A stretch of DNA of 26,175 nucleotides from a virus. Numbering within the stretch: the stretch's first letter is position 1; each line of letters starts with the position of its first letter. Shown here piece by piece: positions 1-24,888 of this stretch. The stretch spans positions 1 to 26,175 of the IMG/VR virus record IMGVR_UViG_3300009091_000052; one strand, written 5' to 3'. The position numbers and the translations under genes are program-made. The notes under the pieces are model-generated. The model saw only the letters and a list, made by a program, of their open reading frames with translations, was not told the DNA's origin and did no database searches.

Positions 1-279
1 TACGTAGTAGGCAGTGGTGAAACTCATTCAGTAGAGGAGTTTTGTAAACTAGCATTTAAAAGAGTAGGTCTTGATTACAAGAAATATGTTGTACAGCACC
101 CAGATTTGTATAGACCAGCAGAAGTAAATTTATTGTTAGCAGATTCCAGCAAGGCTAAGAGAGATTTGCTCTGGGAACCAAAAACTAATTTTAACGATCT
201 GGTCAACCTTATGGTTGACTATGAATTGGAGGAAATATCTAAGTGCCTATTATCGAGAGAGTCGAACAAGAAGACTTAA
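1..279 (+). CDS. gmd: GDP-mannose 4,6-dehydratase, C-terminal part (5' end outside window)
   Basis: This is the last 92 codons of a gene that enters from the left edge in frame 1 and stops with TAA at 277-279. The translation has the typical C-terminal end of GDP-mannose 4,6-dehydratase, a cytoplasmic short-chain dehydrogenase/reductase enzyme that turns GDP-mannose into GDP-4-keto-6-deoxymannose, the precursor of GDP-fucose, GDP-rhamnose and GDP-perosamine. Visible family signatures are a GETHSVEEF segment near the edge, then YRPAEVNLLLAD, then SKAKRDLLWEPKT, which match the Gmd pattern of a substrate-contacting RPAEV loop and a GW/LWxP(K) stretch. The catalytic Tyr-xxx-Lys and the NADP-binding Gly motif would lie upstream and cannot be checked. 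The gene overlaps the terminase start by 37 bases, so it is probably co-transcribed with the late genes. Its amelioration and full length are unknown. Confidence 0.88.
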   Translation, partial: YVVGSGETHSVEEFCKLAFKRVGLDYKKYVVQHPDLYRPAEVNLLLADSSKAKRDLLWEPKTNFNDLVNLMVDYELEEISKCLLSRESNKKT

Positions 280-1817
280 TATTTTATGAAATAATAAAAA
301 ATCCAGTACTCTGTACAGAGTTCATCTACAACATAGACCTGCTAGAAAGTGAAGAAAAATTTGAATATACCAGTTATCAAAGAGAGTTTATATGTGACTT
401 TAATAGTTATGTAAGTCTTTCGTGCGGGCGTAGTGTTGGTAAAACCGTTGCTTTAGTGGGGATTATTATCTGGATTTTAATAAGCAATGTGTACCCATTA
501 GAATATATAGTTTATGGTGTGCCGGGTAAAGTACATCTAGAGCCAGTATGGTCTAGTCTAGTAAGAAGGTTTAGGGGTAATTCATTCCTTAAATTCTTTT
601 TAGATAACAGAGCTGGCATAAATAATTCTGAGTACATACTCAAGTTACAGAATAACTCTCAACTAATGTGTAGACTTGCTGGACAAACTGGCACTGGTGT
701 AAACTTTATTGGTCTTCATACTCCAGTTGTAATTATAGATGAATCTGGGTATTTCCCATGGAGTGCATGGACAGAGCTACAACCTATTTTAAATACCTTT
801 GAACCAGGATTTAAAATGATAGCATCTGGTGTGCCTACTGGTTTACGTGAGAGAAATGTAAACTATCACTGCGATAGAGAAAATTCTAATTACACCAAGC
901 ATAAAATTTCTGCTTTACAAAATCCTAGATTTACAGATGATGATAGACTGAAGGCTTTAGAACTTTATGGTGATGAAGAGTCTGATGATTATATCCATTT
1001 AGTTCTAGGTTTGCATGGTAAGCCGGTATTCGCTTTGTTTGATAGAAATAACATGTCTATTTCTAATTATCCAGTTTACAAATTAGTTTTAGATGGTACA
1101 AAATATTTTGATAATATCACTGAGTATATTGGTAAGTTAGCAGTGTTACCGGGTTTACCGGATAAAGACTCTAAATGTTTAATTGGAGTTGACTTAGGCT
1201 ATACTGAACCTACGGCTATTGTAATCATGATTATGGAGAAGAACAATAATTTTAAATTCCATAGCAGGATTACACTTAACAAAGTAAATTACTTTATACA
1301 AGAGAAGATCATTGATTATTTAGATACCAAGTTTAGACCTTTTATTATAGGCATTGATGAAGGTTCCGCAGGTAAAGCAGTTATTCCTAGATTGCAAGAA
1401 CATGAAGAATTTTTACACAAAAATTTCAAAGATAGAGTTGTGCCAATTAATTTCTCATCACAGATAGTACTAGGTTCAGATAGCGAAGGTAATGAAATTA
1501 AAAGCAGAACTAAACCGTTCGCTGTAGGAGTACTCCAAGACTATAGTGATAGTCATAGAATTATATACTCATCTACAGATTTGGAAATGGTCTCTGAATT
1601 AGAGAGAATGACTTACAGTAAAACCCCGACTGGTGAAATCACCTATAAAACTATAACAGAGCGTGGAGGTAAAAAAGGTGAAGATCACTTTACATCCGCC
1701 ATGTTGTGTCTAGCTCTAGCATACTACATGTACAGCGATGTATTAAACTTTAGAGTACAGAAAAAGAAGCTAGCATCACCATTCTGGAATATTCCTGCGG
1801 ATACGTATGTCCTATAG
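243..1817 (+). CDS. terL: Terminase large subunit (ATPase/nuclease)
   Basis: This is the DNA-packaging motor protein, which cuts concatemeric phage DNA and pumps it through the portal. The 524-residue length is normal for the family. The N-terminal ATPase has a Walker A loop GRSVGKT at residues 62-68, a Walker B strand VVIIDES at 162-168 (acidic pair D166/E167) and a coupling-type SGVPTG at 195-200. The C-terminal RNase H-like nuclease shows the three expected acidic residues: D317 in GVDLGYTEPT, D372 in IGIDEGSAG, and D481 in GEDHFTSAM. The start is GTG at 243, chosen because a GGAGG lies at 228-232 with ten bases of spacing. The start sits inside the dehydratase gene. The TAG stop at 1815-1817 is part of the portal gene's ribosome binding site, so the two are translationally linked. 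No small terminase subunit is visible and it presumably lies upstream of the window. Confidence 0.95.
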   Translation: MPIIERVEQEDLIFYEIIKNPVLCTEFIYNIDLLESEEKFEYTSYQREFICDFNSYVSLSCGRSVGKTVALVGIIIWILISNVYPLEYIVYGVPGKVHLEPVWSSLVRRFRGNSFLKFFLDNRAGINNSEYILKLQNNSQLMCRLAGQTGTGVNFIGLHTPVVIIDESGYFPWSAWTELQPILNTFEPGFKMIASGVPTGLRERNVNYHCDRENSNYTKHKISALQNPRFTDDDRLKALELYGDEESDDYIHLVLGLHGKPVFALFDRNNMSISNYPVYKLVLDGTKYFDNITEYIGKLAVLPGLPDKDSKCLIGVDLGYTEPTAIVIMIMEKNNNFKFHSRITLNKVNYFIQEKIIDYLDTKFRPFIIGIDEGSAGKAVIPRLQEHEEFLHKNFKDRVVPINFSSQIVLGSDSEGNEIKSRTKPFAVGVLQDYSDSHRIIYSSTDLEMVSELERMTYSKTPTGEITYKTITERGGKKGEDHFTSAMLCLALAYYMYSDVLNFRVQKKKLASPFWNIPADTYVL

Positions 1818-1827
1818 GAGAGATATT

Positions 1828-3336
1828 ATGGAAGAAAAAGAAAGAAAATTAGCTAAAGCACAGTATACCATTTGGGATGTATATGGCTACAAAAGTAAAA
1901 CAACGGGGGTATGGTCTCCTAGTGATGTAGATAAGCTAGAGGTAGTAGACTTTAAAGAGTTTCATAAGCTTGTAGACCAGTGCAGATTTTATTACAGGAA
2001 AGACCCAATTGCAGGTACTGTTATTAACAAGTTGGTTGAGATTGGAATCCCAAGACTCAAGATAGAGAAGAAAGGCTTATCTCCAAATGAGGCTAGAATC
2101 TTTGAAGGTATTCTTGATGAAGTTCAAGAGTTTATAGAGAGTTGTGCCTTAGAATATTTAATCTCAGGTTTGGTAATTCCTGAGATTAAGTATGCTGCTG
2201 TTTCAAAAGATCAATTAGTCCAATTTGGAATTAAGAAGTATACTTCATTAGTTCTACCAGTTTCGATGTGGTTACGAGACCCTAAGACAATAAAGATAAA
2301 CTCTACCATGATAGGAGATGAACCATCCTATTATGTTATTCTACCAGAAGAGCTGATCTTTTTTATACAGAATAAGGGCATGTACCCTGATGGAACTAAA
2401 GATATAGCTTTATACCAGCAACTCCTAACTTACTATCCTGAGTTTGTTTATCAGGTTGAGCGGGGGGAGAAAGAAATCCTATTAGAGAATGATTTGATAG
2501 TACGTAGAAAACCTCTATCAGATTCTCCTTATCCTACTCAGTATTTACTTCCAGCAGTTGAAGCCCTTAAACATAAGAGAAACTTACGTAGAATGGATTA
2601 CTCTATCGCATCCAGGGTTATCAGTGCTATCATGCTGGTAAAACTAGGTAATGATGAGTTCCCTGTAACAGAGGATGATGAGAGTGCTTTTGAATCTATC
2701 CGAAGTCAAATGACATGGAGAAACTCTTATGGTAGAGATATAGAACGTATTTTCCAATTGTTTGGAAACCACACTCTAGAAATAGAGTGGGTATTCCCCC
2801 CAGTTGAAGCGTTGTTGAATGAAGCTAAATATCGTGAAGTAAACCAGGACATCTTCTTCGGTTTAGGATTTCCTAGAATCCTTACTACAGGTGAGACTGA
2901 AAGAACCCAGACATCCGACCCAGAATTTGCTACCATGTCTCCAGCTAAAACTATGGAGAACATGCAGAAAAAGTTACTACCTATAGCTCAAGCTATTATG
3001 GTAGAAACAGCTAACAGTAATAATCTTAGAGATTATCCAGTAATAAGTTTTGAACCAGTTAATCTACATGCCTTTGCTACATTTGTACAGGCTATGATTT
3101 CCTTGTACAATACTGGGAATATCTCTAGGACTACTCTGGATGAACTGTTTGGATTTAGATGGGAGGATGAAATGGAGTTAAAAGTGGACGAACAGAAAAT
3201 TATGGAAGAGTCTGATCTACCAGAGTTTTCACCACAACCTTTCTCACCTCAACCCGGAGCAGGAAATCAGCAAAAACCTAATAATACTCAACAAAAACCC
3301 CAACCAGCTAAGCCAAAACCATCTAAAACTGAATAA
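1828..3336 (+). CDS. Portal protein
   Basis: This is the probable dodecameric portal through which DNA enters and leaves the head. It follows the large terminase directly, the usual gene order. The ATG at 1828 is preferred over an in-frame ATG at 1807 because AGGAGA lies at 1816-1821 with six bases of spacing. This gives 502 residues, a usual portal length. The sequence has the portal style: an N-terminal region with FYYRKDPIAGTVINKLVE, a middle region where LKHKRNLRRMDYSIASRVI would fit the wing/stem helices, and a late VNQDIFFGLGFPRILTTGE followed by a helical crown-like part. The last 35 or so residues are rich in Pro, Gln and Lys and look disordered. Identification rests on position, length and general pattern, since portals share little sequence. 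Confidence 0.85.
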   Translation: MEEKERKLAKAQYTIWDVYGYKSKTTGVWSPSDVDKLEVVDFKEFHKLVDQCRFYYRKDPIAGTVINKLVEIGIPRLKIEKKGLSPNEARIFEGILDEVQEFIESCALEYLISGLVIPEIKYAAVSKDQLVQFGIKKYTSLVLPVSMWLRDPKTIKINSTMIGDEPSYYVILPEELIFFIQNKGMYPDGTKDIALYQQLLTYYPEFVYQVERGEKEILLENDLIVRRKPLSDSPYPTQYLLPAVEALKHKRNLRRMDYSIASRVISAIMLVKLGNDEFPVTEDDESAFESIRSQMTWRNSYGRDIERIFQLFGNHTLEIEWVFPPVEALLNEAKYREVNQDIFFGLGFPRILTTGETERTQTSDPEFATMSPAKTMENMQKKLLPIAQAIMVETANSNNLRDYPVISFEPVNLHAFATFVQAMISLYNTGNISRTTLDELFGFRWEDEMELKVDEQKIMEESDLPEFSPQPFSPQPGAGNQQKPNNTQQKPQPAKPKPSKTE

Positions 3337-5040: not shown

Positions 5041-5055
5041 GTGGAGGATTATACA

Positions 5056-5970
5056 ATGGCTGATGAATTGAAAGTTAAAGAAGCAATCGCATCGTTGATG
5101 TCCGATAAGAACAGACGCGATGAGCTTGCTGAGATGATTACCGAGTACGTGCAGCCCAACCATATCACTACAGATTTTGTTGGGATGTTGCTGAATACTC
5201 GTTCGCTAAAGCCTGGGGATTCTCTGGTCAAGAAACTCCGCAAGGGTTTGCAAGTACACACATTAGTTCCTGGTTCTATCCATTTGGCACACGAAGTTAC
5301 CGTGACAGATCGTGTTAACTATCTGCTCGATGGTGCTGATGTGAAGGTCACTTGGAATGAATGGGAAATGGATGCTGGTGAGATTGGTACGGTTAGTGAA
5401 ATTCGTAGTGAGATGCTAGCCAAACTGAGAGACTACTACTACAATAAAGTTTTTACCGCCTTGACTACAGTCTGGACTGCCGGTAATACTCCTAATAACT
5501 TCACCTCTGTTGGTGGAACTATTACTGCTGCGGCATTGGAGAATGCTATTGACAGGATTAATCAGACTACTCCTGGTGTAAAAGCTGTTGTAGGTACTAG
5601 AGCTGCTATGACTCCGATCACCAAATTTGGTGCATTCTGGAATGATGGTGGTACTCAGTGGGAAGGTGTTGATTCTCAGTTGGAGGAAATTGTTCAAAGA
5701 GGTATGTTGGGACGCTATTATGGTGCACCTCTGATCGTCCTAGATCAGGTGTATGATAATTTAGAATCGTGGTCTCCGATGCTGCCCACTGACAAGATTC
5801 TTGTCTTGGGTGAAAATGTTGGTGAGTTCATCACTTACGGTGATGTGAAGACCAAGCAGTATGACGATCCTCGCCCGACCCCGCCTCAATGGTTCCTCGA
5901 ACTGTATCAACAGTTTGCTTTGTTAATTTGGAACGCACAAGGCTTGTATGTAATTGGCGGGCTGTCGTAA
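5056..5970 (+). CDS. Major capsid protein (HK97-like fold predicted)
   Basis: This is the likely main shell protein, 304 residues, a typical size for a coat without a long delta domain, consistent with a separate scaffold domain upstream. The ATG at 5056 is chosen over an in-frame GTG at 5041 because the GTG lies inside the ribosome binding site GTGGAGG. Features in order are a charged N-terminal helix, a region around residues 75-115 with VTDRVNYLLDGADVKVTWNE and EWEMDAGEIGTVSEI that fits the E-loop/spine helix area, a domain with ALENAIDRINQ and VKAVVGTRAAMTPITKF, and a C-terminal part with LGRYYGAPLIVLDQVYD and KILVLGENVGEFITYGD, the pattern seen in HK97-fold A domains. It is followed at once by a hairpin. 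Raised GC and codon bias fit very high expression. The fold is inferred rather than proven. Confidence 0.85.
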   Translation: MADELKVKEAIASLMSDKNRRDELAEMITEYVQPNHITTDFVGMLLNTRSLKPGDSLVKKLRKGLQVHTLVPGSIHLAHEVTVTDRVNYLLDGADVKVTWNEWEMDAGEIGTVSEIRSEMLAKLRDYYYNKVFTALTTVWTAGNTPNNFTSVGGTITAAALENAIDRINQTTPGVKAVVGTRAAMTPITKFGAFWNDGGTQWEGVDSQLEEIVQRGMLGRYYGAPLIVLDQVYDNLESWSPMLPTDKILVLGENVGEFITYGDVKTKQYDDPRPTPPQWFLELYQQFALLIWNAQGLYVIGGLS

Positions 5971-7077: not shown

Positions 7078-8271
7078 ATGGCTAAGGTAAAAAAGAAAAA
7101 GGTTTTGTTTATTGGGGATGGTATAGTCCCAACAGGTTTTAGTACAGTCATCCATAACATAATTTCAAAACTTCCTAAGAGTGAATTTGAAGTTCACCAT
7201 CTGGCAGTAAACTATTATGGAGACCCACATGATAAAGCCTGGAGGGTATACCCGGCAGTAACTGGAGGAGATATCTGGGGTTTTAATAGGATAAAGATGT
7301 TTGCAGATCAGAATTTTGATCTGATATTTATCCTCAATGATCCTTGGGTAATAGATACATATCTAAAAGTTATTCAAGAGCAGTTTAAAAAAATCCCCCC
7401 TATTGTAGTTTATTTTCCAGTAGATGCTGCTCTTTTAGATAAAGATTGGTTTATAAGATATGATATAGTAACAAAGGTTTGTGTTTATACTCAGTTTGGT
7501 TTTATAGAAGTACAAAAGATCAGACCAGATTTAGAACCAGTTGTAATTCAACACGGTCTGGATAGGAACACTTTCTATAAAATTGATGAAGATAAAAGAA
7601 CTTTAAAAGCTAAAGTATATCCCAATAAAGAAGATTTTCTAGATTCTTTTATAGTTTTAAATGCTAATAGGAACCAGCCTAGAAAAAGAATAGACCTATC
7701 TATGCTAGCGTTTACTATTTTTGCAGAAGACAAACCTGAGAATGTAAAGTTGTACCTTCATATGGGTACTAGAGATATGGGTTGGGATATCCTGAAGATG
7801 GCTTTCAGGTATAATATTGAGAGCAGACTGATAGTAACTAACACCCTCCCTGGAGTACAGACTGTAACTTTAGACAAATTAAATCTAATTTACAATGCTA
7901 CAGATGTTGGATTAAATACAGCAGTAGGAGAGGGTTGGTCACTTACAAACATGGAACATGCTGTTACTGGAGCACCTCAAATTATTCCAGATCACAGCGC
8001 ACTACATGAATTATATTCAGATTGTGGTCTGCTAGTCCAAGTTGATACCTGGGCGGTTAACCCAGAAACCCTGACAGTATCCGGTATAGTAAGGGCAGAA
8101 GATGTTGCCAAAGGTTTACAACTTTTATATGATAATAAAACAATGTACAATCTTTTATCAGAAAAATGTTCACAGAAGTTTACATCCCAGGAATATGACT
8201 GGAATACTATTGTAAAAGAGAAGTGGATACCTGTATTTAGAGAAGCTTATGAGCATAACTTGGCCCAATAA
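7078..8271 (+). CDS. Glycosyltransferase, GT-B fold, GT4-like
   Basis: This retaining-type sugar transferase has 397 residues, the normal GT4 length. The N-terminal Rossmann half begins with basic residues, then VLFIGDGIVPTGFSTVIHNI, a beta strand followed by a glycine loop for the acceptor. An HG pair at 159-160 (VVIQHGLDR) marks the inter-domain hinge. The C-terminal donor-binding half contains LNANRNQPRKRIDL at 194-207 (the usual N/G-R-xxxKxxD segment), then NATDVGLNTAVGEGWSLTN. It has a perfect E-X7-E motif at E285 and E293 that contacts the nucleotide sugar, followed by GAPQIIPDHSALHEL. No membrane anchor is seen, so it should act in the cytoplasm. It sits between two head-tail connector genes with a good ribosome binding site (AGAAAGGA) and overlaps the next gene by 23 bases. 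It is therefore expressed late with virion genes. Donor and acceptor are unknown. Confidence 0.88.
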   Translation: MAKVKKKKVLFIGDGIVPTGFSTVIHNIISKLPKSEFEVHHLAVNYYGDPHDKAWRVYPAVTGGDIWGFNRIKMFADQNFDLIFILNDPWVIDTYLKVIQEQFKKIPPIVVYFPVDAALLDKDWFIRYDIVTKVCVYTQFGFIEVQKIRPDLEPVVIQHGLDRNTFYKIDEDKRTLKAKVYPNKEDFLDSFIVLNANRNQPRKRIDLSMLAFTIFAEDKPENVKLYLHMGTRDMGWDILKMAFRYNIESRLIVTNTLPGVQTVTLDKLNLIYNATDVGLNTAVGEGWSLTNMEHAVTGAPQIIPDHSALHELYSDCGLLVQVDTWAVNPETLTVSGIVRAEDVAKGLQLLYDNKTMYNLLSEKCSQKFTSQEYDWNTIVKEKWIPVFREAYEHNLAQ

Positions 8272-11773: not shown

Positions 11774-12505
11774 ATGCGTAGCATAGACAAAAATGATGTG
11801 GATATTAGTAAGCTGTTTAGATGGGGTGCTAAATTTAATATTTTAGACTCCAGGGATCAGGTTATAGTTGAGGTTTATATTCGTTTAGTTGGGGATGCAG
11901 AACTAAACAGGGCTAGAGTCTTTGCACTTAGAAAATCAGCAGAATTGAGAAGTAAGCTCAGAGAAGAAAACTCTGATGAAAGGCTTGCTTTTATACCGCC
12001 TTTAGAAGATTTAGATAAAGAGAATCTGGTAGAAACTGCTTTACTTTATATGATCAGAGATATTACTTTAGATGCTATAAAGGATACTAGATTACCTTTA
12101 CCAGCAGAACCAGATTCCGATTCATCTCTAGAGAAACAAGAGAAGTATCAAAAAGAAGTTGATGAATATCCAACTAAAAAAGATAGTATTATAAGGGAAA
12201 AAATAGAAAAGACTGTTGAACTCCGAAGACAAGAGCTTTTATCTAAACCTATAGAATCTGTATATAAAGAGTTTGAAAGGTCTATTATTAATCAAATTTG
12301 TGAAGAGGAAATGATCCAAAAATTTAGGGAGATGTGTGCTTATTTAGGTACATATATGGACGAAAAATTTGAGGATATCCTGTTTGAAAGTTTTGAAGAG
12401 TTTGAAAATCTACCAAAAGAAATCAAAGATCAATTTCTAGAGTACTACAATACATTGGAGATTTCTGGAGAAGACCTAAAAAAATTGCAAGAAGTAATGC
12501 AGTAG
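11774..12505 (+). CDS. Tail assembly chaperone, short form (gpG-like)
   Basis: This 243-residue acidic, strongly helical protein is encoded between the major tail protein and the tape measure. An AAAGGA at 11760-11765 precedes the ATG. The position and the helical, charged character (EENSDERLAFIPPLEDLDKE, EYPTKKDSIIREKIEKTVEL, EECMIQ-type end region with Glu-rich helices) match siphophage tail chaperones such as lambda gpG. These bind the tape measure and recruit tube subunits, and are not part of the finished particle. The zero-frame product ends at TAG 12503-12505, just after a slippery run of seven A residues at 12478-12484. It is larger than lambda gpG (140 residues). No homology to a named family was recognised, so the call depends on context plus the frameshift signal. 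Confidence 0.8.
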   Translation: MRSIDKNDVDISKLFRWGAKFNILDSRDQVIVEVYIRLVGDAELNRARVFALRKSAELRSKLREENSDERLAFIPPLEDLDKENLVETALLYMIRDITLDAIKDTRLPLPAEPDSDSSLEKQEKYQKEVDEYPTKKDSIIREKIEKTVELRRQELLSKPIESVYKEFERSIINQICEEEMIQKFREMCAYLGTYMDEKFEDILFESFEEFENLPKEIKDQFLEYYNTLEISGEDLKKLQEVMQ

Positions 12506-12524
12506 CATCACTATGGGCTATTGC
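12478..12524 (+). promoter_or_regulatory. Programmed -1 ribosomal frameshift signal
   Basis: Seven A residues at 12478-12484 read A_AAA_AAA in the chaperone frame (codons CTA AAA AAA TTG), a strong -1 slippery heptamer. Fourteen bases later a stem can form between GCAGTAGC (12499-12506) and GCTATTGC (12517-12524): eight pairs with one G-T, and a ten-base loop. The zero-frame stop TAG lies in the left arm. Frame arithmetic agrees: the upstream gene is in frame 2 and the downstream gene in frame 1. Confidence 0.85.
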
Positions 12525-12777
12525 TAGGGATTTACAAATTCCCTTAGACAAAAACGTAGTGGAATTAAAAGATATTCCTTATACCATAACTTACGTGGTA
12601 AAGAAAAGAATGCAAATAGATAATCTTAACGAACTACCTAAAGAAAAAAGACCCCCAGATTTGATGATCTGGGAGGGTACTTCTGAAGAATTGGAATCCT
12701 GGATAGATAAAATCCTGGATAATAAGCAACAACAGAAAGCCAATTTGGTAATTGATGAGAATAAAATAGAAGGTTAA
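12484..12777 (+). CDS. Tail assembly chaperone, -1 frameshift extension (gpT-like part of gpGT)
   Basis: The -1 frame is open from the slippery site to TAA at 12775-12777 and adds 97 residues. These begin IARSNAVASLWAIARDLQI and continue through PYTITYVVKKRMQIDNLNEL to a Glu/Lys-rich end. The full frameshifted product would be about 334 residues: residues 1-237 from the zero frame, then this extension. Within it, a GTG at 12559 could be taken as an independent start. No ribosome binding site precedes that GTG, while the open frame runs all the way back to the slippery site. The segment PDLMIWEGTSEELESWIDKI is compatible with a small chaperone domain. In lambda the T domain of gpGT recruits tail tube protein, and the same job is inferred here. 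It is followed three bases later by the tape measure start. Confidence 0.85.
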   Translation: MARSNAVASLWAIARDLQIPLDKNVVELKDIPYTITYVVKKRMQIDNLNELPKEKRPPDLMIWEGTSEELESWIDKILDNKQQQKANLVIDENKIEG

Positions 12778-17434: not shown

Positions 17435-17800
17435 ATGTCTAATTGGGAACTAGGCGGAAGAAGAATTTTTGTCACTGATATTGGTAGTGACTTCAAACAG
17501 ATCATAGCTAGATTGCATCCTTTAGGAGGTGGTACAGTCCACCATACTTTTGGTTATGAGGATGCAGTTAGAAAGCTTAAATGCTATGTAGTAGGTAGTA
17601 CTGATATGGGGCAGATAGAGAGTTTCACTGCTAGTGGGACTACCTTTGTATTAGGAAGTCCTTACGGAGCATTGGGAAATTATTTTGTAAGCAATGTAAA
17701 TCACAATATGTTGAATACTGTTTGTCAAACTCTAAGACCGGATTTACCGGATAACTCCCCTGTTTACGTAGTAGATATAGAACTGTATCAGGAAATATAA
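17435..17800 (+). CDS. Small tail-tip protein (gpU-like, tentative)
   Basis: This 121-residue protein is encoded directly after the tape measure. The stop TAG of the tape measure lies in its ribosome binding site AGGAGA (17425-17430). The pattern HPLGGGTVHHTFGYEDAVRK followed by LKCYVVGSTDMGQIESF, then TFVLGSPYGALGNYFVSNV and a final strand YVVDIELYQEI, is similar in style to the small P2 gpU family of tail proteins (a 'G-G-x-V-x-H-x-F-G' segment, a strand, a helix-like middle, then 'G-x-Y-x-V' and a final strand). It may also be a minor hub-adjacent protein unrelated to gpU. It ends one base inside the first hub gene. The tail-tip location is solid and the family link is tentative. Confidence 0.6.
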   Translation: MSNWELGGRRIFVTDIGSDFKQIIARLHPLGGGTVHHTFGYEDAVRKLKCYVVGSTDMGQIESFTASGTTFVLGSPYGALGNYFVSNVNHNMLNTVCQTLRPDLPDNSPVYVVDIELYQEI

Positions 17801-18789
17801 TGGCAGAACTTTACGCCGATATTACAGGTCTAAGTAATATTCTAAATGTTAGTGTCTCTATGAGCCATTCAGCCGCTACTTCTGTTGCTATTGTAGATGC
17901 TTTAAGTTCTTCTTTGGATATCGGGGATGATATAGATATTGATATTGGGTATACAGGTAATCATTCAAGAATTTTTAGAGGTTATGTAAAACAAATTGAT
18001 AGAAAAGTACCAGAAAATCTCTATACTATTACAGCCCATGATGTAATGACCAGAGCTGTAGATTTTTTTGTAGCATCCACTAACCCAGAAGAGCCTTTTA
18101 CCAGGACTAATATTTCTGCTGAAGATTTAGTAGAGGATGTATTAGCTTTAGCAGGTCTAACTAATTTTGATCCTGATCCTACAAATTTTGTTTTTGCTAC
18201 CAATTCAGAAGCTGAGGTTAATTTAGTATCAGCATTTGATTTTTGTAGATATATAGCTGATACTTTAACTTGGCATCTTTATGCAGATGAGGATGGAGTT
18301 GTACATTTTATAAACAGAAAACCTTATGTTATGAAAGCTGGTAGTGTAGAATCTAACCAACCTGGATTTCAAGCTGATACATCTTTAGGTACTATTGATG
18401 ATACTATGATCCTGGATTTTACATACAGAAGATCAGAAAAAGATTTAAGGAATAGAATAGTTGTTTATGGCAGTACTGGAGTTTACGCTGAGGCTAAAGC
18501 ATCCAGCCCTTATTTGCCTGCTGGATTTTACAAGACTGTAGCATTTGGTACTAACCTTATTGATCATCAGGGTTATGCACAAAAAGCTGCGGATTATAAT
18601 CTTATTATTTTAAATAGATTAACTGAACAACTATCTATGTCAGTATTAGGTGATCCAGCTTATATGGCTAGGTCTGTATTTACAATTAATGAGAGTATTC
18701 TAAGTATTAATGAGGATTATTATATTGTTCAGTCAGAACATAACTGGTCTAAAAATGGGTATATTGTTACTATGGAGTTGCGTAAATAA
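17800..18789 (+). CDS. Tail hub protein 1 (late control gpD-like)
   Basis: This 329-residue protein has the layout of phage hub proteins (P2 gpD, T4 gp27, Mu gp44). The N-terminal beta domain with SLDIGDDIDIDIGYTGNHSR, IFRGYVKQIDRKVPENLYTI and TAHDVMTRAVDFFVAS is the common 'GDxVxxxxG - RIFxGxV - YxxTAxD' start. A helix-rich middle follows (SAEDLVEDVLALAGLTNF), then a domain with WHLYADEDGVVHFINRK and RNRIVVYG. Hubs connect the tape measure and tube to the tail tip and open during infection. No lysozyme or peptidase domain is attached. It overlaps by one base with genes on both sides (TAATG at each end). It is paralogous to the first 315 residues of the next gene (see findings). Confidence 0.75.
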   Translation: MAELYADITGLSNILNVSVSMSHSAATSVAIVDALSSSLDIGDDIDIDIGYTGNHSRIFRGYVKQIDRKVPENLYTITAHDVMTRAVDFFVASTNPEEPFTRTNISAEDLVEDVLALAGLTNFDPDPTNFVFATNSEAEVNLVSAFDFCRYIADTLTWHLYADEDGVVHFINRKPYVMKAGSVESNQPGFQADTSLGTIDDTMILDFTYRRSEKDLRNRIVVYGSTGVYAEAKASSPYLPAGFYKTVAFGTNLIDHQGYAQKAADYNLIILNRLTEQLSMSVLGDPAYMARSVFTINESILSINEDYYIVQSEHNWSKNGYIVTMELRK

Positions 18790-21700
18790 TGGATGTTCAG
18801 ATAAAACATAATGGTACGGACATTACCGATTATGTTTTAGAGTATAACCGGACTAAAGAGTTATGCTCTGGTATAGGTTTATTAGACATTAGTATTACTA
18901 AGAATGTATCAAGGACTTTTGATCCCTGGGATACCATTACTATTTATGAAGAGGGCAGTAAAAGGGGTGAGTATAATATCTCTACCATTGCTAGGGATTC
19001 AAAAAGTGGAAATTACCAATTAGAATGTCAGGATGATTCTAAAAGGTTAGTAGATTATTTTGTAGCAGATTCTTATACAATAACTACATATAGCCTAACT
19101 AAATATTGGATAGAACTTATCCTAAATATGGCAGGTGTAAATTACACTTTTGATACTGCTGAATTAGGTACACCATTGAATGAGAATTCAGTAGTTGGGG
19201 TTGGAAGTGCATATGATGTAATCACCCCTCTATTACAGCAGAGTGGTTGGTATATATATTTTGATGAAGATAATTTAGCTCACATAGGTAAAATAGATAA
19301 AACTACCAGCCATGATGATAGTTTTAATGATAGTGATATTTTAAGTATTAACACTATGAAAAACGACGCTATGCTCAGGAATAGAGCAGTAGTTTGGGGT
19401 GCTGGGGATGCTTATAGTGGTACTTGGATATTTGCGGATGTTAGCAGACAAACTTCGTGGAATTATGATTCTAATGATGTTAGAACTGTAGTTCTAGCTA
19501 ATAGTAGTATTAGAAATACTGCTACAGCTAACCAACTAGCTATACAAATATTAGATGAATTTACTAAAAAGAATTATGTAAAAACTATTGAGATTATAGG
19601 AAGTCCTGATATTGAGATTGCGGATACAGTTTATATAAATTCAAATTATTTCTCAGGTCTTTGTTTAGTAACTACTATGGCTGTAAGTGTTAACAGTAAT
19701 GGTATGATTACTACATTAGTATTAGATCAACGTTGCCCAAGATTATTTGGTGTGTGGGATATTTCTAATAATTATGTTTATATTGGTACTCAAGGTTCTG
19801 GAGTAAAAAGAAAACTACTAAATGGATCAACTTGGGAAGATTATAGTACTGGATTAACTAATTTAAATATTACAGATTTAGATGTAAATAATGGTAAATT
19901 TGTATGTACAACATCTGGCGGGTCTTTGTTTCTTAGAGATGTTACAAGTAGTGGTTGGAGTGTGTTTACACCGAGCGGTTTTTATAATAGATTAAATATT
20001 CCTTCATATATGATATCAGCAAATGATGGTAACTATGTAGCATGTGCTATAAATAAAACTAATAATGAAATTTATGGTTTATTTACTAATAATGTATCTA
20101 GTTGGGTAACTACAATTACATCATCAGGTAATTATATAAATAGTTTAATAGTAACATTAAGTGGTTTGTCAACATATGATTATAACCATATAGGGTATGA
20201 TTTAGAGGATATTGGAAATTCTATACTAGTATCTACGTATACAGGTATAACTGCTGCAAGTGGTTTATTTTCAGAGGGTACTGGAATACAGAGAAATAAA
20301 AGTTCTTATATTAGTAACGCTACTAGTACATATAATACTGCTATGAATATGTCATATGGTAGTTTAGATGCGGTAACACTTGCAAGATGTTGGTACGAAA
20401 ATTATTATTTCAGACATGATACGAATAAGGCATGGAGAGTAGATGCATCTACAGGAGAAACTATAAATATAAATAATCCTGGAGGATATTCATTCTATGC
20501 ATCTTTTGGTGTAGGCGTAGTATTAGATGAAAATAATTACATAGTCTTTAAAACACATGCTACTGATGAAAAAATAAACTATATAGTTAGATTTAATTTT
20601 GAAGATGAAACCAGCAGTGTGATACACACTGAAAGCGATGCCACCCAATATGTAGGTGTATGGGATGCATCTGCTGTAAAAACAGATACTGATGTACGCT
20701 GTATTTTTATAGCCAGTAAAATGAATCCTGGTGCAGCGTATCAAAATTATTATTATTACAAATATTTTGATTTATCTAATTTTACAGTATCTTCTGAAAC
20801 AACTATAGCTACTTGGGAAGAATTATATGCTACTTCAAAAGACGAGTGGGGTCTTGATTTCGCCGGCAGTAAATTTGATGATTGTTACGGTAGATTTTTC
20901 TTGACTTATAAAGAACAACAAACTAACGCTGCTGGTGGTGGTGCTAAAGTAAAGCTTATAGTTATAAATGCATTAGAGGGTACTTTTGAATCTACTGTAA
21001 AAACTATGGATAAAGAAGGTTCTATATCAGTGGATTTTACACCTTTTGATAGTATATCAAGTTATGCCAATCAAAAATTTTATTTGATGTACAGGTTAAT
21101 TCGCATAACCCCAACTTCTACTGAATACGTGATAGATGAAATAGATTTTAGTGGTAATGATACTAATATAAAAACCAGTGCAACAACTTGGAATAAATTT
21201 TCATCATCTAAATACACAACATACTTAATATATAATGACGGAACTGTAGAAACATTAGCAGGTACAGGTGGGGTTACTTCTATACCAGTACCATCTAATA
21301 TTTCTAGAACAGCCGATGATAATGATAACTCTCTTATCATATACAGAAACTTTTATCCCGGACGGGTATATAAAGTTAGCCCAGGTAATACATTAACAAT
21401 ACTAATAGATGATTGGATTTATGGAGATGCTACACCTACACTATTTCTAGAAAAAATATTATTAGGTTCTGTTCTATTTTCTAATGGTGCTTGGCAAACT
21501 ACTATATATCCTAGTGTTTCTAGCGTATTGAAAAAACAAGCTGATAGTTTAATATTTGAGGATGTTTTTACAAAAGTTTTTGATTCTCAAGTACCTTTGA
21601 AATTAGATGCATCATTAGAATCTCCAATAGTACTTTTTAGCCCCGGGCAGGTACTTTTATATACTACACTAGCAGGAGATTTAGGTACTTTTTCTCTATT

Positions 21701-22016
21701 AGATAATATTAACAGCATATATGATGTAAGAGAATTCTACTCATCTAGTGGTATATATACTTTATTAGCTACATCATCTGGTGTATTTAAATTTCCATAT
21801 ACAGGCGGTAGTGGGCTTTCTTTAGTTCCTGTATATTCTGGTTTTTATAGAAAAGTTGAGACAAATAATCATGGATATTATTCTACACCCTATATATTTG
21901 TAGGTACATCTGGATTATTCTTTCAAAAGAACCCAGATATAGATACTTTTACAGATTATTCTTATAGTTTACCGATGAGCAATATTACAGTTATCAGAAT
22001 GGATGATTCCCTATGA
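18789..22016 (+). CDS. Tail hub protein 2 with a large beta-propeller-like extension
   Basis: This 1,075-residue tail-tip protein has two parts. Residues 1-315 repeat the hub layout of the previous gene: YQLECQDDSKRLVDYFVAD, WIELILNMAGVNYTF, WYIYFDEDNLAHIGKID, MLRNRAVVWGAGD. Residues about 316-1075 are beta-rich with Ser/Thr/Tyr/Asn bias and recurring strands such as YVYIGTQGSGVKR, GKFVCTTSGGSLFLRDV, IYTLLATSSGVFKFPYTG and YIFVGTSGLFF. These are in the style of propeller blades (strand, GT(S)SG turn, strand). No catalytic motif was recognised. It could be a receptor-binding or carbohydrate-contacting tip. GC falls to very low values here (11 of 60 bases at 20041-20100). The TGA stop overlaps the fibre start (ATGA). 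The hub half is firm and the propeller description is an inference. Confidence 0.7.
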   Translation: MDVQIKHNGTDITDYVLEYNRTKELCSGIGLLDISITKNVSRTFDPWDTITIYEEGSKRGEYNISTIARDSKSGNYQLECQDDSKRLVDYFVADSYTITTYSLTKYWIELILNMAGVNYTFDTAELGTPLNENSVVGVGSAYDVITPLLQQSGWYIYFDEDNLAHIGKIDKTTSHDDSFNDSDILSINTMKNDAMLRNRAVVWGAGDAYSGTWIFADVSRQTSWNYDSNDVRTVVLANSSIRNTATANQLAIQILDEFTKKNYVKTIEIIGSPDIEIADTVYINSNYFSGLCLVTTMAVSVNSNGMITTLVLDQRCPRLFGVWDISNNYVYIGTQGSGVKRKLLNGSTWEDYSTGLTNLNITDLDVNNGKFVCTTSGGSLFLRDVTSSGWSVFTPSGFYNRLNIPSYMISANDGNYVACAINKTNNEIYGLFTNNVSSWVTTITSSGNYINSLIVTLSGLSTYDYNHIGYDLEDIGNSILVSTYTGITAASGLFSEGTGIQRNKSSYISNATSTYNTAMNMSYGSLDAVTLARCWYENYYFRHDTNKAWRVDASTGETININNPGGYSFYASFGVGVVLDENNYIVFKTHATDEKINYIVRFNFEDETSSVIHTESDATQYVGVWDASAVKTDTDVRCIFIASKMNPGAAYQNYYYYKYFDLSNFTVSSETTIATWEELYATSKDEWGLDFAGSKFDDCYGRFFLTYKEQQTNAAGGGAKVKLIVINALEGTFESTVKTMDKEGSISVDFTPFDSISSYANQKFYLMYRLIRITPTSTEYVIDEIDFSGNDTNIKTSATTWNKFSSSKYTTYLIYNDGTVETLAGTGGVTSIPVPSNISRTADDNDNSLIIYRNFYPGRVYKVSPGNTLTILIDDWIYGDATPTLFLEKILLGSVLFSNGAWQTTIYPSVSSVLKKQADSLIFEDVFTKVFDSQVPLKLDASLESPIVLFSPGQVLLYTTLAGDLGTFSLLDNINSIYDVREFYSSSGIYTLLATSSGVFKFPYTGGSGLSLVPVYSGFYRKVETNNHGYYSTPYIFVGTSGLFFQKNPDIDTFTDYSYSLPMSNITVIRMDDSL

Positions 22017-24432: not shown

Positions 24433-24888
24433 ATGCCGAAGGCAGTGGGTGAATTAAAGATATGCCCAAAATGTGAAAAAACAAAAAACATATCTGAATT
24501 TCACAAAGATACTAGGACTGTAGATGGATTAAAGATTTGGTGCAAAACTTGTAGATACGAAAAATTAAATAAACCAACTAAATATGGATTGCCCAGAACT
24601 CATAAAGATTATGATAAAGCTGCTTATTTAGATAGGTTTTATGGAATATCTCTAGATATTTGGGATAAATTATTCCATGACCAGGAGGGTACGTGTGCTA
24701 TCTGCAATGAAGAATTTAAAGATAAAATTAATGTAGATCATGACCATATAACAGGAAAGGTTAGAGGTCTATTATGTGATAAATGTAATCGAGCATTGGG
24801 TCAGTTTAATGATGATATCAATAAACTTAAAAATGCTATAAAATATTTGGAAAATAGTAAGGAGGTATGTGATGCCCCAGGTGGTTGA
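24433..24888 (+). CDS. HNH nuclease, recombination endonuclease VII-like
   Basis: This 151-residue protein has two zinc-type cysteine pairs and a nuclease core. The N-terminal C11-x-x-C14 with C37-x-x-C40 forms one zinc knuckle with FHKD between. The second half has C88-x-x-C91, then the catalytic segment NVDHDHITGKVRGLLCDKCN (residues 100-119; D102, H103, D104, H105; C115-x-x-C118). The tail has ALGQFNDDINKLKNAIKYLE. This is the hallmark of endonuclease VII-like (T4 gp49) proteins, which cut branched DNA, and of related homing HNH enzymes. A GGAGG at 24421-24425 precedes the ATG. It ends inside the following gene (17-base overlap). Phage copies can resolve DNA branches before packaging, or be selfish homing genes, and its solitary place among lysis genes fits either. 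Confidence 0.88.
   Translation: MPKAVGELKICPKCEKTKNISEFHKDTRTVDGLKIWCKTCRYEKLNKPTKYGLPRTHKDYDKAAYLDRFYGISLDIWDKLFHDQEGTCAICNEEFKDKINVDHDHITGKVRGLLCDKCNRALGQFNDDINKLKNAIKYLENSKEVCDAPGG

Follow-up and report, generated by a model that had tools for sequence, protein, structure and literature searches.

A putative programmed −1 ribosomal frameshift in the tail assembly chaperone gene of a family of uncultured tailed phages

Introduction

Long-tailed dsDNA phages widely produce a short tail assembly chaperone, G, and a longer one, GT, by a low-level −1 shift at the same point of the genome (PMC5009743, PMC4493119). The mechanism is that of bacteriophage lambda, and its wide conservation among long-tailed phages has been described (PMC5009743, PMC7618472, PMC4493119). 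The mechanism itself is, hence, already well established in tailed phages. Genes of this type are further characterized by a large excess of G over GT and by both products being required for tails yet missing from the virion.

The present analysis deals with a stretch of viral DNA of 26,175 nt, referred to as the window, which corresponds to positions 1 to 26,175 of the IMG/VR virus record IMGVR_UViG_3300009091_000052. Here, a programmed −1 ribosomal frameshift very probably makes two tail assembly chaperones, namely, G of 243 and GT of 334 amino acids, from one gene located between the probable tail-tube gene and the tape-measure gene. This reading is based on conservation of the slippery site, the coding character of the −1 extension, the gene order, the predicted protein fold, and a covarying stem of the family. 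In an earlier note on this DNA, a −1 frameshift and its site had been proposed, both of which are borne out by the comparative evidence; the gene, which had been left unnamed there, is predicted to be that of a tail assembly chaperone.

Gene Neighbourhood

The window represents the structural module of a tailed phage. The coordinates of the relevant features are compiled in Table 1. An ORF of about 395–410 amino acids upstream of the chaperone gene recurs in most relatives, and a PhageMin_Tail domain is also encoded directly after the extension in all eight relatives tested.

Table 1. Features of the window and their coordinates.
Feature	Position	Strand	Remarks
Terminase	243-1817		PHROG 2
Portal	1807-3336
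Major head protein	5041-5970		weak match
Probable major tail (tube) protein, 396 aa	10480..11670	+	directly 5′ of chaperone ORF; module position; weak match to PHROG 985, virion structural protein, E 3e-5
Zero-frame ORF, G-like tail assembly chaperone (predicted), 243 aa	11774..12505	+
Shine-Dalgarno-like GGAG	12467..12470	+	7 nt before heptamer; putative function
Slippery heptamer A_AAA_AAA	12478..12484	+	in frame; A_AAA_AAN in 48/48 distinct readable relatives
−1 frame extension (T-like), 97 aa + TAA stop	12484..12777	+	conserved from first residue; third-position-biased substitutions
Left arm of conserved stem A	12494..12500	+	spacer 9 nt; 5/7 pairs left in window
Left arm of stem of earlier note	12499..12506	+	GCAGTAGC; spacer 14 nt; modest enrichment in window's clade only
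Zero-frame TAG stop	12503..12505	+	within the preceding arm; overlaps −1-frame codons GTA GCA (ATA GCN in most relatives)
Right arm of stem of earlier note	12517..12524	+	GCTATTGC
Right arm of conserved stem A	12529..12535	+	eroded in window
Tape measure protein, 1548 aa	12780..17426	+	directly 3′ of extension; Pfam PhageMin_Tail, E 4e-14
Tail proteins and lysin	3′ of tape measure gene

Several further genes of the window deserve mention. Positions 1-279 encode the C-terminal portion of a protein resembling GDP-mannose 4,6-dehydratase (Pfam GDP_Man_Dehyd, E 3e-14); since the window opens within this gene, a nucleotide-sugar gene lies just 5′ of the terminase gene. Amid the head-tail genes, an ORF of 397 amino acids (7078-8271; GDGIVPTGFSTVIHNI...) resembles by eye a group-1 (GT4-type) glycosyltransferase; a Pfam search with this ORF gave no match. 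A recombination endonuclease VII-type gene (24433-24888; Pfam Endonuclease_7, E 5e-23) is situated between the tail and lysis genes. The adjacent ORFs 17800-18789 and 18789-22016 both have a match to PHROG 1887, a tail protein family, in a similar region, suggesting, as judged from sequence, duplication of a tail hub-like domain, and the second of them carries a long C-terminal addition.

Identity of the G Product

Sequence searches of Pfam, PHROGs, PDB, and INPHARED assigned neither the G product nor the extension to a family, and no relative of the G product was detectable among the INPHARED phages. An AlphaFold2 model of the G product, which was built from 46 sequences, has a pLDDT of 87.6; the extension folded alone is of low confidence (pLDDT 63). 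While a Foldseek search of the G model against PDB and BFVD gave no significant match, realignment of the Foldseek candidates with VIA-align 2 placed the tail assembly chaperone of HK97 (2ob9) at rank 1 (Z 7.7, 100 residues aligned) and YqbN of B. subtilis (3klu), itself a prophage tail chaperone homologue, at rank 2 (Z 6.1); both values are below Z 8, which the tool treats as safe, though each of the two top rows is a chaperone. The alignments with these best-matching structures span model residues 7-230, but only about 100 of the 243 G residues align, and long helices near residues 82-160 are extra in G. On the basis of the two leading structural rows and of the position before the tape measure gene, the protein encoded by 11774-12505 is predicted to be a tail assembly chaperone. 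In view of the predicted fold, the gene position, and the wide occurrence of G/GT frameshifting in long-tailed phages, the G/GT frameshift gene described here belongs to a known type, of which it represents a new sequence family.

Slippery Site and −1 Extension

The heptamer is read CTA AAA AAA TTG, its first A occupying a third codon position in the ORF that begins at 11774; A_AAA_AAA had, thus, been placed in the right frame by the earlier note. The −1 frame had been given there as open to 12777, which agrees with an open stretch from 12406 to 12777 (123 codons), closed by TAA at 12775-12777. Fusion of 11774-12484 with the extension yields a GT-like sequence of 237 + 97 = 334 residues, and the products of 243 and about 334 residues predicted previously are in accordance with both the frame reading and the comparative evidence. 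Heptamers of the type XXXYYYN are common in the AT-rich window; a single one therefore means little, and the case rests on conservation in relatives.

Relatives were collected by scanning IMG/VR with the protein, which returned 23 loci, and then with its alignment, which raised the number to 64. Sixty loci are readable through the slippery site, 48 of which are distinct, with identities of 35–100%. Five loci were left unscored, namely, L028, L082, L084, and L085, which are cut off, and L083, because of an in-frame stop. In the latter, the chaperone ORF (L083:3342-3840) ends at this stop after 165 codons, which is likely an indel or an error in a short contig. The only match on a genome contig, L089, lies on a MAG contig that bears the name Brevinema andersonii; it is a duplicate of the viral contig L053.

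All distinct readable loci carry the site at the same place, 47 of them as AAAAAAA and one as AAAAAAC. The sole change (A6C; L031:1270-1276) leaves a valid heptamer that is still a legal X_XXY_YYZ site; loss of the seven-A run in relatives, which according to the earlier note would speak against frameshifting, was not encountered beyond this case. Going by the codon usage of the same genes, about 27% of Leu-Lys-Lys sites would be encoded as NTA AAA AAA; this spelling is used at none of the 11 other such sites that these genes contain.

The extension has the characteristics of a coding sequence from its very beginning. Its first residues, adjoining the slip, are IA[RG]SN in nearly all loci, its mean column identity is 56% (46 sequences), and 17 of its columns are invariant among 14 loci, several of them located before position 12559. 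Substitutions are biased to the third position of the −1 frame, including the 18-nt overlap with the zero frame. None of the 48 loci has an ATG, GTG, or TTG in the −1 frame upstream of the slippery site, and possible starts in that frame appear from extension residue 7 at the earliest. A shift is therefore the only way to reach the conserved beginning of the extension.

Conserved Downstream Stem

The 60 nt following the heptamer fold much more stably than the remainder of these genes (mean z −3.0, with 40 of the 48 loci below −1.5), and also more stably than synonymous recodings (mean z −1.8). Inspection of the folds revealed a conserved stem, the left arm of which, GYAAYGC, starts 9 nt after the heptamer. 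With q0 denoting the first base after the heptamer, the right arm is found either at q44-50 (GCRTTRC; group A) or at q56-62 (mostly CCGTTGC; group B). Synonymous shuffles keeping the −1 protein served as the null for stems. Against this null, 169 of 182 pairs are formed in group A without the window's clade (112.8 expected), and 89 of 91 in group B (61.8 expected); after thinning to loci less than 75% identical, z is 7.4 for stem A and 5.7 for stem B. Since these registers had been selected with the folds already inspected, the scan was extended to every register of seven pairs. Each stem came out best in its group, with a z of 8.8 versus a null maximum of 4.3 for stem A and of 6.2 versus 3.8 for stem B; stem B is first only narrowly because overlapping downstream registers score nearly as high in group B.

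Covarying pairs are present at synonymous third positions (UA17/CG13 and UA18/CG11), and in group B four pairs show double changes. Phylogenetic independent contrasts on single covarying pairs gave no significance, the number of starred branches being too small. RNAalifold predicted no structure on all 47 aligned loci or on group A, which is explained by the right arm differing between the groups and by some loci being devoid of the stem; on group B alone, it returned a seven-pair stem. A search of Rfam for this region found nothing. The usual spacer of stimulatory stems is 5–9 nt. The stem at 9 nt in most relatives falls in this range and would stimulate the shift.

The Stem at 14 nt and the Zero-Frame Stop

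A stem of eight pairs, one of them G-U, which starts 14 nt after the heptamer and includes the zero-frame TAG in its left arm, had been described in the earlier note, and its coordinates are correct. As a bare structure this stem is not exceptional (fold of 12485-12560, z −1.7 versus dinucleotide shuffles), and for the window alone, comparison with synonymous codons gives p 0.14. It is complete, with eight out of eight pairs, in the window, L026, L032, and L034; across the 47 aligned loci, 63% of cells are paired, which is not beyond column shuffles. A covarying stem, for which the earlier note had suggested looking, is shared by most relatives at 9 nt; the 14-nt-spaced stem is not the structure of the family.

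Among the 48 distinct loci, 19 have the zero-frame stop immediately after the heptamer (0 nt) and 26 have it 18 nt away, the distance being 21 nt in two further loci and 48 nt in the last one. On the protein tree, the stop has shifted between 0 nt and 18 nt or more no fewer than 11 times. Both common stop positions mostly arise from a −1-frame codon ending in TA that is followed by G or A, as in ATA GCN, which gives TAG. From the movement of the stop on the tree it follows that its position is set by the choice of −1-frame codons and not by the stem, and from its variability that the six residues after the site are dispensable in G. The location of the stop within the 14-nt-spaced stem is an incidental by-product. 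A stem with a buried stop, as put forward earlier, is not supported as the mechanism of the family, because the stem is absent as such from most relatives, the stop moves freely, and the conserved stem starts at 9 nt.

The Window's Own Clade

The protein tree unites the window with L026, L029, L031, L032, L034, and L048 in one clade. Stem A is near chance in this clade (30 of 49 pairs versus 26.1 expected). The 14-nt-spaced stem has 51 of 56 pairs versus 43.9 expected, a value reached by none of 2000 shuffles; without the window, 43 of 48 pairs remain (p 0.001), and without L026 as well, 35 of 40 (p 0.007). Two Ala-Ile/Val-Ala stretches of the protein account for much of this pairing, and none of the registers scanned exhaustively in the clade was clearly above the null maximum.

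The GGAG at 7-nt spacing is found in five of the seven clade members and at no other locus, and may go back to one shared inheritance. Within 20 nt upstream of the site, Shine-Dalgarno-like words are present family-wide in 9 of 48 loci versus 15% at control positions, which is no clear excess. It is in this GGAG-bearing clade, too, that the conserved downstream stem is largely lost.

The 14-nt-spaced stem may be a clade-specific stimulator, and the data are suggestive of a change of stimulator in the window's clade. Stem spacers of 11–14 nt are known (PMC5009743), and the cardiovirus stem at 13–14 nt acts through a bound protein (PMC7618472). A more far-reaching scenario, in which one invariant site is served by changing stimulators, that is, by the 9-nt stem with the near right arm, by the same left arm with a right arm 12 nt further away, and by the 14-nt stem plus GGAG of the clade, is speculative and rather unlikely. 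If it were true, the 14-nt stem would be further away than stimulators usually act and might depend on a bound protein, like the cardiovirus 2A stem.

Alternative Explanations

Homopolymers are prone to indels, and a sequencing or assembly error in the A run might have split one ordinary gene. Such an error is excluded by the concordance of 48 distinct loci from many metagenomes, with the same frame change at the same codon in each of them. The homopolymer run would also permit the fusion to be made by RNA polymerase slippage instead of by the ribosome; such slippage on runs of A or T has been described for bacteria and is highly efficient when the run comprises nine (PMC5009743). However, the run is exactly seven in 47 loci, never longer, and flanked by T on both sides, while L031 with its six A's and a C still obeys the X_XXY_YYZ rule; together with the covarying stem 9 nt downstream, which fits ribosomal stimulation, this renders polymerase slippage most improbable. 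That the downstream frame would be a separate gene, with GTG 12559 opening an ORF of 72 amino acids, is scarcely tenable, since invariant extension columns precede this codon, nothing resembling a ribosome binding site is found before it, and it is not conserved as a start, L003 and L026 having no start codon there; nor does any of the 48 loci offer a −1-frame start upstream of the slippery site. A start of the downstream frame with its own ribosome binding site, which had been named in the earlier note as an argument against the shift, was not found there, and 25 conserved residues before GTG 12559 would be left unexplained by it. With ribosomal frameshifting as the preferred reading, the fragment 12559-12777 would be part of the frameshift domain of a tail assembly chaperone.

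As an alternative role for the stop-bearing stem, regulation of termination or slowing of ribosomes at the stop had been considered in the earlier note. Its complete pairing in the window and in three relatives would be compatible with such a role, but in L034, with eight pairs, and in L031, with seven, the stop directly follows the heptamer and is outside the stem. Stop placement is, hence, independent of the stem, in line with the repeated moves of the stop on the tree, and a function of the stem at the stop is very unlikely.

Proposed Mechanism and Comparison with Known Systems

Summarizing, programmed −1 frameshifting in the window would proceed as follows. At CTA_AAA_AAA, the Lys-tRNAs in the P- and A-site would slip back by one base and re-pair with AAA AAA. 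A fraction of ribosomes would continue in the −1 frame and add the 97-residue T domain, and the remaining ribosomes would stop at TAG 12503. If lambda is taken as the model, G would coat the tape measure and T would bring the tail-tube protein to it. In most relatives, the shift would be stimulated by the stem 9 nt after the heptamer; in the window's clade, where this stem has decayed, the 14-nt stem, perhaps together with the upstream GGAG, may take its place. Slippage as such and its frequency, the functions of G and T, and stimulation by any stem are inferred.

With this assignment, two genes whose proteins match no Pfam or PHROG family are named in an uncultured phage group. The 48 distinct loci constitute an unusually well-sampled natural series, in which the site is fixed and the stem pairs with different arms or decays; such a series would allow the contribution of stem position to −1 frameshifting to be tested.

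As in the lambda gpG/gpGT system, the gene is located between a tail-tube gene, which is a probable one in the window, and the tape measure gene, the T domain is short and encoded in the −1 frame, and the tape measure gene comes next (PMC5009743, PMC7618472). The systems differ in the slippery sequence, which is G_GGA_AAG in lambda and A_AAA_AAA in the window. Further differences from lambda are the 243-amino acid G protein with its long helical insertion, the lack of detectable sequence similarity to named families, and the covarying downstream stem in most relatives of the window. The dnaX-type −1 cassette of E. coli consists of A_AAA_AAG, an upstream Shine-Dalgarno sequence, and a downstream stem. 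While in the family described here the Z base is A, the Shine-Dalgarno element is absent from most relatives, and the window's own stem is 14 nt away, it shares with dnaX-type cassettes the A-run heptamer, a normally spaced 3′ stem (most relatives), and a Shine-Dalgarno-like GGAG (window's clade).
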